Assembly: GCF_014770435.1 (NCBI RefSeq)
Contig: NZ_CP061739.1
Coordinates: 1,922,001-1,986,000 of the forward strand
DNA length: 64,000 nt
Source of the DNA: Psychrobacter sp. 28M-43
GTDB taxonomy: Bacteria; Pseudomonadota; Gammaproteobacteria; Pseudomonadales; Moraxellaceae
Direction: 5' to 3'
Shown piece after piece: positions 38,020 through 41,403 of the stretch; position 1 is the first letter of the stretch, and every line of letters starts with the position of its first letter. The notes beneath the pieces were generated by a model. That model searched no databases, was not told the DNA's origin, and worked only from the letters and a program-made list of their open reading frames with translations. A program made the translations under genes and the position numbers.

Positions 38020-39315
38020 TCAATTTGGGGTCACCCGCCAAATGGTATTAGAAAGGTCATCGGCAACGATGAGTGCCCCTTTTGGATCCACTGTCACGCC
38101 TACTGGTCGACCAAAGGTCTTACCATTTTCGCCCTGGAATCCAGTGACAAAGTTAACTGGGTCTCCGGCTGGCTTACCGTTGCTAAATGGGACGAACACT
38201 ACGTCATAACCCGCTGGGTCTGAACGGTTCCAGCTGCCATGCTCACCGATGAATGCGCCTTCGCTGAACTTGCCGCCCATGGTTGTCGTTGAGAACGCTA
38301 TGCCCAAAGGAGCTTTGTGCGACCCAAGGCTGTAGTCTGGAGCAATCGCGGCGGCTACCATATCAGGTTGCTCTGGCTTGACCCGCGGATCGACATTTTG
38401 TCCCCAATAGCTGTAGGGCCAACCATAAAACTTACCCTCTTGAACTGAGGTCAAGTAATCAGGTACCAGTCGTGGACCGAGCTCATCACGTTCGTTGATC
38501 ACGGCCCATAACTGGCTAGTGCCAGGCAAGATAGCTAACGCCGTTGGATTGCGCAGACCGGTTGCATAAGGTCGGTGAGCACCGCTTTTGGCATCGATCT
38601 CCCAGACCATGGCGCGATCCGCCTCTACATCCAGTCCGTTTTCAGTAATATTGCTGTTGGAACCAATGCCCACGTACAGGAATTGCCCATCCGGACTGGC
38701 CGTCATCGCCTTGGTCCAGTGATGATTGACCATGCTAGGCAGGTCGGTGAGTTTGCGTGGCGGTCCACTAGCGGTGGTCTGTCCGGGCTGATAATCGAAT
38801 TGCACTACCGCATCTTGATTGGCAACGTACAGTTGGTCTTCGATTAGTGCAAGACCATAAGGCGCATTCAGATTCTCGGCGAATACAGTACGTGTCTCGT
38901 AAGTGCCGTCGTCATTACTGTCGCGCAGAAGAGTCAGACGGTTACCTCCTTTGACGGATGTAGTACCTTTAGCCTTGAAATAAGTAGCAATAATGTCTTT
39001 AGGACGTAGCTTGGGTGCACCACCGCCCTTGCCCTCAGCAATCAGTATGTCACCATTAGGCAAGACTAGCGTCTGCCGTGGAATCTGAAGGTCAGTGGCA
39101 ATAGCTGTGATTTCATAACCTGACGGCACTATAGGGCGGTTATCTCCCCAACCTGCTGGCTCAGCGATTTTCAAAGTGGGTAATAGGCCCCGTTGAGATT
39201 CGGGCAAGGTTGGATTGGCACCTAACTGTTCTGCATCGTTTACATTATTTTCGCCACATGCGCTTAAGAGAGCAGCGACTAAAAAAGATATCGATAAGAT
39301 ATTGAGTGATTTCAT
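38020..39315 (-). CDS. Sorbosone dehydrogenase-family lipoprotein (PQQ-type beta-propeller)
   Basis: A 431-residue exported protein. The N-terminus is a lipoprotein signal with lipobox LLSAC (Cys20). The rest is a beta-propeller of the soluble glucose/sorbosone dehydrogenase type: LPNGDILIAEGKGGGAPKLR, GLALIEDQLYVANQDAV, TGLRNPTALAILPGTSQLW, WPYSYWGQNVDPR and APLGIAFSTTTMG. Relatives oxidise sugars or aldehydes with pyrroloquinoline quinone (PQQ) at the cell envelope. The gene overlaps the upstream DUF2231-like gene by 4 bp. The region looks richer in GC than its flanks. A pqqA gene stands 880 bp away on the opposite strand. Confidence 0.88.
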   Translation of the reverse strand: MKSLNILSISFLVAALLSACGENNVNDAEQLGANPTLPESQRGLLPTLKIAEPAGWGDNRPIVPSGYEITAIATDLQIPRQTLVLPNGDILIAEGKGGGAPKLRPKDIIATYFKAKGTTSVKGGNRLTLLRDSNDDGTYETRTVFAENLNAPYGLALIEDQLYVANQDAVVQFDYQPGQTTASGPPRKLTDLPSMVNHHWTKAMTASPDGQFLYVGIGSNSNITENGLDVEADRAMVWEIDAKSGAHRPYATGLRNPTALAILPGTSQLWAVINERDELGPRLVPDYLTSVQEGKFYGWPYSYWGQNVDPRVKPEQPDMVAAAIAPDYSLGSHKAPLGIAFSTTTMGGKFSEGAFIGEHGSWNRSDPAGYDVVFVPFSNGKPAGDPVNFVTGFQGENGKTFGRPVGVTVDPKGALIVADDLSNTIWRVTPN

Positions 39316-39740
39316 CTTGTACCTCCAATGCGCCAGCTTGTGAGGCCAATCCAGGTTGCAATGCAGGCCAGAATGACAGTGATAACAGATAGAATAAGCC
39401 CAGTCGGCATACTGGCCCAGACATCCTTTGCATGGATAAATGAGTTGAGGATACCTAGTACAAAAGTGACCAGTAGCAACAGAAAATAAGCCATTGGTGT
39501 ACCCATGCGCTTATCAGCGCGAACTAGAGATAAAATTGAGCCTAGCATGGCCAAACCATTAAATACCAGCGCACCTATAAGCATCCAAGAAGCGAAGTTC
39601 TTCCATTGAAGCTCGTAGCTGGACCAATAGGCGTAATCGTTAAGTAAGACCCCGATAAACAGAGGCACCATTCCGGCCAAAAAAAACGCATGCAGCGGGT
39701 GCAGCGCGGTGCCGGAGTGTCGGGCAACAGCACTAGTCAT
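39312..39740 (-). CDS. Small membrane protein, DUF2231-like
   Basis: A 142-residue protein with four membrane segments (about residues 18 to 35, 50 to 70, 83 to 103 and 113 to 133). The SGTALHPLHAFFLAGMVPLF opening with its HP motif fits the DUF2231 group of predicted inner-membrane proteins, which often accompany PQQ-type sorbosone dehydrogenases and may pass electrons onward. It overlaps the dehydrogenase start by 4 bp (ATGA), so the two form one operon. Function unproven. Confidence 0.78.
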   Translation of the reverse strand: MTSAVARHSGTALHPLHAFFLAGMVPLFIGVLLNDYAYWSSYELQWKNFASWMLIGALVFNGLAMLGSILSLVRADKRMGTPMAYFLLLLVTFVLGILNSFIHAKDVWASMPTGLILSVITVILACIATWIGLTSWRIGGTR

Positions 39741-40194
39741 GGCAGTTTCCTTGTTGATAGTAAATGAGGATTCGATCGACCGTACTAATTGTACTGGCCC
39801 GAACTACGCGTGATAGAATTTAAATTACATGAAATCAAAGCATGGCTTGAAACATACCAAAGCCAAGAGAGTTCTTCAATCTTTTTTTGGTTATTTAATG
39901 AACATAAGCTGGTTATTATTTCTTAAATGAGCATTAGCTACAGTCTTTTTTGAATCACAGAACCTGAAGTCCACAATTAGCGCACTCCATCGACAACCTC
40001 TAAATACTAACTTCACAATTAGGGTTTATATTTATAAACATAAGTAAACTTTACTGTTGCCGCTAAACTTCATAGCTAAAATATTCTAAGTTAACATCTA
40101 ATAAATTGACAGCAGGGGTCAGGTTGTAATAGCATGAGGTATCCCCTTTATTAATCTTGCATATCAACTAGTAACATCATTCAGGAGAAATCTC
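39741..40194. other. AT-rich intergenic region between two divergent units
   Basis: About 450 bases separating the dehydrogenase operon from pqqA. A TTGACA hexamer at 40106 to 40111 has no -10 at proper distance. No gene, repeat or clear operator was found. Confidence 0.45.
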
Positions 40195-40269
40195 ATGCAG
40201 TGGACCAAACCAGCTTTTCAAGACATCCGTATCGGTTTTGAAGTTACTATGTATTTCGAAGCCCGTTAA
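40195..40269 (+). CDS. pqqA: PQQ precursor peptide PqqA, 24 residues, intact
   Basis: A short open frame that encodes a complete PqqA: it begins MQWTKPAF and ends with EVTMYFEAR. Glu16 and Tyr20, the two residues that are cross-linked and cut out to form pyrroloquinoline quinone, are at the canonical positions and spacing (E-x3-Y). CAGGAGAAA precedes the ATG by a few bases. The 24-residue form with Gln2 matches the Acinetobacter type as I recall it. It is followed by a stem-loop and then a decayed pqqB; pqqC, D and E are absent from this window. Confidence 0.93.
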
Positions 40270-40288
40270 AATTTACTAAACTTACATC

Positions 40289-40324
40289 CATTAAAAAGTC
40301 TTAGTGATCTAGGGCTTTTTAATG
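40289..40324 (+). terminator. Stem-loop between pqqA and the pqqB remnant
   Basis: A perfect 10-bp stem, CATTAAAAAG with CTTTTTAATG, encloses a 16-base loop. A hairpin after pqqA is common in pqq operons, where it favours the short pqqA transcript. The T-tract here is part of the stem. Confidence 0.65.
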
Positions 40325-40325
40325 A

Positions 40326-40795
40326 ATGTACTGATTTATTTATACTTATGTTTTGGATTCTTCTGCTGATATTATTTTTTCGTCCCAGAGTTGCAATTGC
40401 CATAACTATCACGGTATTCGGCTAGGAACCATACAGGAAAAGCCCTGCACCCAATCTTCAATAGCCATATCAGAAAATACCATAGATTCGATTTCATTCA
40501 ATATAATAGCTGACATTAGTCAGTAATTATTCGAATTTAAGTCTTTAGCGCTAGCACGTCAATTGAGAAATGCTGACATCATCAATGTGGCCCTGATAGA
40601 CAGTCAGCTTGACCATGTGGCGGGGTTATCAACTCTGTGTGAAGGTTGTTCGATTCTTGTTTGGCGCACTAACATGGTCTGTCAAGATCTAACGACAAGA
40701 GTCCCTTTCTTAATATGTTGAAGCACTGGAATGACGGTTTGCAAAACCTATTAGCCAAGTATGTCAATTACCTCAGCCAAAAATTCAATAGATAG
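40326..40795 (+). pseudogene. pqqB: Decayed pqqB (PQQ biosynthesis, MBL-fold protein), truncated
   Basis: Translated from 40353, the frame reads LDSSADIIFSS then SCNCHNYHGIRLGTIQEKP, CTQSSIAISEN and, after an in-frame TAA at 40524, [20 protein letters not shown] and [12 protein letters not shown] -1 shift near 40709 then restores [11 protein letters not shown]. These blocks align in order with the PqqB N-terminus (LGSAAGGGFPQWNCNC, TQSSIAIS, DSQIDHTTGLLSLREG, DLTTGFP, MLKHWN). The glycine-rich start has lost its glycines, a stop and a frameshift interrupt the frame, and the C-terminal half is missing. It lies 56 bp after intact pqqA. Not functional. Confidence 0.88.
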
Positions 40796-41091
40796 CTTTA
40801 TAAGGCACGCTAATCAATTTAGAATTTCTTTACAAAGATGAAGCTATATCACGCTTTTTGTACTTGATATGATAAATTAGCCCTTTGTTTTATGAGCTCT
40901 ATCCATTTGGCTTCTCGTATTTTTTGATTTAATTGATGACAAGTCGTAATTAATATTAGAAGAATACATAGTACTATTAGAGTTGACTATCACTACAGTG
41001 CATTCTAATCAACGACATAGGTTGCGCAATATTTATATCGTTAGTATCATTTCAGTTTTGAAATGACTCAATTATAACTAGGAAAAACCTT

Positions 41092-41403
41092 ATGGCAAAA
41101 TTAGAATCAAACATCGAGTTAGAAGCGGCAGCATTCCGTCGTTTACTAGCTCATTTAGACGAGCGTAAAGATGTACAAAACATCGAGCTGATGAACCTTG
41201 CCGACTTTTGTCGTAACTGTTTATCCAAATGGTATAAGGCGGCTGGTGAAGAACGTGGGATTGAAATCGAATACGAGGATGCGCGCGAGCTTGTTTATGG
41301 TATGCCTTATGCCGAGTGGAAAGAGAAGTATCAACAGAAAGCAACGCCAGAGCAGTTAGCGCGCTTTAACGAGATTGAAGCTGCTAAGAATAAAATGGAT
41401 TAA
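41092..41403 (+). CDS. DUF1244-domain protein
   Basis: A 103-residue soluble protein that matches the small DUF1244 family in length and in the segment LMNLADFCRNCLSKWYKAAG followed by YEDARELVYGMPYAEWKEKY. Function is unknown; the two conserved cysteines of CRNC could bind metal. It starts at the first ATG, is preceded by an AGGAAAA ribosome site and stands alone, convergent with the SRPBCC gene. Confidence 0.8.
   Translation: MAKLESNIELEAAAFRRLLAHLDERKDVQNIELMNLADFCRNCLSKWYKAAGEERGIEIEYEDARELVYGMPYAEWKEKYQQKATPEQLARFNEIEAAKNKMD

Follow-up and report, generated by a model that had tools for sequence, protein, structure and literature searches.

A 24-codon pqqA gene standing apart from its pathway in a 64-kb stretch of Psychrobacter DNA (the window, G000:C1:1922001-1986000 in the 3.12-Mb single-contig genome G000) appears, judging from its conservation in six genomes, to be an extra precursor gene kept by purifying selection. 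This orphan is probably what survives of the front of a second, decayed pqq operon, and we consider it likely to have been kept to feed the enzymes of the intact operon in trans.

The orphan pqqA and the complete operon

The orphan pqqA (40195..40269, + strand) was identified by its translation, by profile matches and by the constraint on its codon positions. A first-pass annotation had read it as an intact PqqA of 24 residues with Glu16, Tyr20 and a good ribosome site, and this reading was borne out. The peptide scored 44.1 bits against Pfam PF08042 (cut-off 21.1) and 45.2 bits against NCBIfam TIGR02107 (curated cut-off 20), and with scores above both cut-offs the open reading frame is not due to chance. 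The ribosome-binding site, AGGAG, was read 7 nt 5' of the ATG (40183..40187, +); in an alignment of the six loci with an orphan pqqA (here called stumps), it is changed to AAGAG in G059. Glu and Tyr at E-x3-Y spacing are the residues of PqqA that are turned into PQQ, and this spacing (E16, Y20) is kept in all 48 pqqA loci read.

A very short intact gene, with the rest of its pathway missing from 64 kb of DNA, was puzzling, and the puzzle was gone once the whole genome was searched. G000 carries two pqqA genes. The second (G000:C1:1555679-1555735, on the opposite strand) heads a complete pqqABCDE operon (locus L006) about 0.4 Mb from the orphan. This operon consists of pqqA, pqqB (303 aa), pqqC (255 aa), pqqD (98 aa), pqqE (390 aa) and a dipeptidase-family (M19) gene of 351 aa, with PqqB, PqqC, PqqD and PqqE all scoring above their NCBIfam curated cut-offs. 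The enzymes PqqB, C, D and E are thus encoded in the same genome as the orphan, which is an intact pqqA unlinked to working pqqBCDE in a genome that possesses such a set, in other words an orphan copy. The earlier proposal that the other genes lay elsewhere was correct, and the option of enzymes supplied from outside is unnecessary. That the orphan could be the only pqqA of its genome, or could depend on borrowed enzymes, is ruled out by the same operon. The two PqqA peptides of G000 are identical, and their genes differ at 5 third positions. Because the peptides are identical, the product of the orphan should be usable by enzymes encoded elsewhere.

The last gene of the operon (L006:5367-6422, -) belongs to the M19 membrane-dipeptidase family (PF01244, 286.9 bits) and lies 3' of pqqE in all 16 operon loci listed. 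It could provide a peptide-trimming step of PQQ synthesis. The family of PQQ-dependent membrane glucose dehydrogenases is represented in G000 by one gene (1312082-1314526), so that a use for PQQ exists there.

The decayed operon front around the orphan

The orphan lies within a stretch that can be aligned to the front of the complete operon (40092..40744, +; 500 of 664 aligned positions identical) and that covers the promoter region, pqqA and the first part of pqqB of L006. Directly behind pqqA is the front part of a pqqB relic (40338..40744, +), in which alignment to the operon revealed the loss of the start codon, a stop within the reading frame and a change of frame. A DUF1244 gene lies downstream. 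No intact pqqB, pqqC, pqqD or pqqE was seen near the orphan, in agreement with the first-pass annotation. Remnants of pqqC, pqqD, pqqE or the dipeptidase gene were not found within 1.1 kb from pqqA in the six stumps at E values up to 1, the search behind pqqA giving no such remnant but only matches of E 0.25 to 0.83. Where the sequence 3' of pqqA can be aligned to the operon of its own genome, the identity is just 70.6-75.8% across the six genomes, which does not fit the earlier suggestion of a recent leftover.

Several features of the operon front have stayed around the orphan. A promoter-like pair of motifs, TTGACA and TAGCAT with a spacing of 18 nt, was read at 40106..40135 (+), and TTGAC[A/T] occurs 5' of pqqA in 48 of 48 loci; a promoter scan of the window region gave no excess of sites (7 versus a shuffle mean of 5.4). 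A hairpin (40283..40330, +; -22.2 kcal/mol, z -7.8) is located directly 3' of pqqA, at the same place as in the operon copy. In the window this hairpin has a T run within its stem and no free T run, and it is absent from the terminator scan list. An Rfam scan of 39700-41100 at gathering scores produced no match. The orphan is thus like the L006 operon in its upstream TTGACA motif, its identical peptide and the hairpin behind pqqA, and unlike it in having no working pqqB, no pqqC-E and, upstream of about -103, an unrelated sequence.

On the upstream side lie two genes of the opposite orientation, a DUF2231 membrane protein gene recognized by profile match (39312..39740, -) and a glucose/sorbosone-dehydrogenase-like gene (38020..39315, -; PF07995, 40.1 bits). 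Among solved structures, PQQ sugar dehydrogenases matched the dehydrogenase-like protein weakly, as did NHL chains of the TRIM family.

Distribution and origin of the orphan

Genes for PqqA were found in 42 of 105 Psychrobacter genomes, and pqqE was found in the same 42, so none carries pqqA alone. A second pqqA is present in six of these 42 (G000, G043, G059, G064, G069 and G099). All six second copies are intact and all six are followed by the same decayed pqqB. A DNA search of the 105 genomes with the relic alone recovered no stump that had lost its pqqA. In the wider family, 85 of 348 genomes (including the 105) have pqqA, with one match each except in the six. The orphan is absent from 36 of the 42 pqq-bearing Psychrobacter genomes and is hence dispensable for PQQ synthesis in general.

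Genes of the membrane glucose dehydrogenase family occur in G005, G045 and G047, which gave no pqqA or pqqE match, so their glucose dehydrogenases would need PQQ from outside; the pqq-bearing genome G096 is missing such a gene.

A FastTree tree was built from the pqqB front (48 rows, of which three are identical over this part). The six relics grouped in one clade with support of 1.000, which has a long branch and is separate from the operon copies that these genomes carry. This tree shows the six stumps to share descent, as far as can be read from pqqB. The nearest neighbor of the relic clade was G083, by a weakly supported join (0.631).

The dehydrogenase-like gene gives an indication of what once stood at this site. 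It is present in nine of the 105 Psychrobacter genomes, all of them pqq-bearing, and it adjoins the orphan in four of the six stumps (G000, G043, G059 and G069). In G096 it adjoins a complete operon. In G103 a glucose dehydrogenase gene separates it from a complete operon downstream. A further case may be G068, in which exactly 77 nt at the start of a 4.5-kb operon contig recur at each end of another contig, with the dehydrogenase-like gene at one of these ends and a membrane glucose dehydrogenase gene at the opposite one. The arrangement suggests that two pqq operon copies were probably collapsed in the assembly, although the other end of this operon contig is present in only one further contig. 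In two relatives, then, the site of the orphan is occupied by a complete operon, and the same is probably true of a third. The dehydrogenase-like gene has no pqq neighbors in G026 and G088. Several genes that flank the orphan in the window are also present in G088, with no pqqA between them; only the part on the DUF2231 side could be aligned.

The simplest history would be that a complete operon once stood at the site in the window and was redundant with the one now elsewhere. We infer that a whole operon stood there, and not a front fragment brought in from another place.

The dehydrogenase-like and DUF2231 genes are also adjacent to each other in Pseudomonas, Oxalicibacterium and Azospirillum (13 loci), and on this comparison of gene order they are a conserved two-gene unit.

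Another proposal is that the orphan is a dedicated precursor supply for the dehydrogenase-like gene, co-expressed with it from the shared intergenic region. The confinement of the gene to pqq-bearing Psychrobacter genomes and its position beside four of the orphans would agree with this. However, G064 and G099 keep the orphan in the absence of the dehydrogenase-like gene, which weakens this gene as the reason for retention, and G026 and G088 show the reverse situation. In addition, at all 13 loci outside Psychrobacter the roughly 6 kb around the dehydrogenase-like gene are free of pqq genes, and the membership of its product in a PQQ-enzyme family is weak. We therefore regard a dedicated supply as unlikely. 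A similarly low probability is given to a duplicate operon reduced by selection to a free-standing precursor gene that would now be separately regulated, or in which PqqA would have a role beyond bulk PQQ supply.

Conservation of the orphan pqqA

The six stumps were aligned, and of the pqqB relic the 337 ungapped columns were used and the 88 gapped ones left out. Ninety of these 337 columns are variable. Upstream of -103 the count is 92 of 347, so that the neutral yardstick is not dependent on the relic alone. The -103..-1 region is also at the neutral level (27 of 103 columns variable). Within pqqA, third codon positions varied as in the relic (6 of 24 columns; Fisher p = 1.0), whereas codon positions 1 and 2 were almost invariant (1 of 48; Fisher p = 3.4e-5). 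The sole peptide change across the six orphans, V17I, is at a residue that is also variable among operon copies. When neutral evolution of pqqA was simulated 20,000 times along the tree of the relic, a mean of 14.0 residues and a minimum of 4 became variable, and none of the 20,000 yielded the observed number of one or fewer. Intactness alone would have been unremarkable, as 18% of the neutral simulations were free of stops in all six sequences. It is the PqqA peptide encoded by the orphan that is constrained at the protein level.

These data bear directly on the possibility that the orphan is a plain remnant, left over neutrally from a lost operon and spared by mutation only because the gene is so short. 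The rest of the second operon copy is dead or gone, most pqq-bearing relatives have no orphan, and the genome has a complete operon with its own pqqA. The first-pass annotation had considered that such a complete set would make the orphan a plain remnant. The set exists, but the conclusion does not follow from it, as pqqB decays and third positions drift while the peptide has changed only at V17I. The nonsynonymous decay in sister strains that was proposed as a sign of neutral loss was likewise not observed in our comparison, which was made between species in six genomes. A neutral rate of change at third positions and not at positions 1 and 2, together with the absence of any simulation as conserved, makes the remnant very unlikely. 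We reject a neutral remnant or pseudogene on the ground that the coding sequence did not evolve at the neutral rate (1/48 versus 90/337) beside a pqqB that is dead.

Conservation could also be imposed by gene conversion, if recombination with the operon copy, and not selection on the orphan, kept the two genes in step. In G069 the orphan and the operon pqqA differ at one position only, and the exact 77-nt match of both contig ends of G068 to the start of its operon could be read in the same way. However, conversion would have erased the differences found in the other five genomes, namely 5 in G000, 6 in G043, 7 in G059, 6 in G064 and 6 in G099. Five or six of these are at third positions in each genome, no genome of the six having more than one difference outside them, and the two genes are about as diverged as their surroundings. 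Gene conversion is thus ruled out for all genomes but G069, and as a general explanation it is highly improbable. Taken together, the codon-position pattern and the divergence between orphan and operon copies indicate that the orphan is old, conserved in its peptide and, in five of six genomes, not homogenized. A function of the peptide outside PQQ synthesis, such as metal uptake or signaling, is hardly credible despite the part in lanthanide uptake suggested for PqqA of Methylorubrum extorquens in the available text of PMC11317620, as the orphan peptide is the same as the operon PqqA or one residue away and no genome has pqqA in the absence of pqqE.

A possible function in precursor supply

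Retention in the service of the intact operon, the explanation that we prefer, would involve the following steps. A second pqq operon would have stood beside the dehydrogenase-like gene in the ancestor of the six sampled species. Being redundant with the complete pqqABCDE, it would have lost pqqC-E, and its pqqB would have decayed, the unit of promoter, pqqA and hairpin staying in place. The orphan peptide would then be converted to PQQ in trans by PqqE, PqqD, PqqB and PqqC of the intact operon.

In this pathway, PqqE with PqqD cross-links the Glu and Tyr of PqqA, and trimming and oxidation to PQQ follow. One PqqA is spent for each PQQ, and the enzymes are reused. Since the precursor is consumed and the enzymes are not, an extra pqqA copy may raise the supply of precursor or place it under separate regulation. 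The likeliest benefit, as far as gene content allows it to be judged, would be more precursor, or precursor made from a second promoter.

Extra pqqA copies in other bacteria

Additional pqqA genes have been described in several methylotrophs, including Beijerinckiaceae RH AL1 (PMC11317620, PMC9851590, PMC4109929, PMC6520949, PMC10848612; here and below, as far as the available text of these papers goes). Methylorubrum extorquens AM1 carries pqqA2 and pqqA3 outside its pqq operon, in a genome with the full pathway (PMC11317620, PMC6520949). The Psychrobacter orphan is similar in lying outside the pqq operon of a genome that has the full pathway. It differs in being one extra copy, in being followed by a decayed pqqB from which its origin can be read, and in belonging to a gammaproteobacterial genus.

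Several pqqA genes are also found in Methylovorus MP688, in Hyphomicrobium strain FJNU-6 and in Methylophilaceae (3 to 12 copies), and these methylotrophs usually have a single set of the remaining pqq genes (PMC11317620, PMC9851590, PMC4109929). More than one pqqA with one working set of the other pqq genes is the situation in Psychrobacter as well. Psychrobacter differs from these organisms in that its copies number two in total, and this in 6 of the 42 genomes with pqq genes. A literature search, with most subscription journals outside its coverage, found no published description of a Psychrobacter orphan pqqA. The orphan is of a kind already known from methylotrophs, of which Psychrobacter is a further case.

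With the six stumps, nature offers a test of which component is limiting for PQQ. In all six, the catalytic genes died and the consumed precursor alone survived. This outcome agrees with the availability of PqqA being rate-determining, as reported for Methylovorus (PMC11317620, citing Ge 2015, in the text available). It also suggests a route by which orphan pqqA genes may have originated in other bacteria, in which duplication of the operon is followed by the loss of all of its genes but pqqA.
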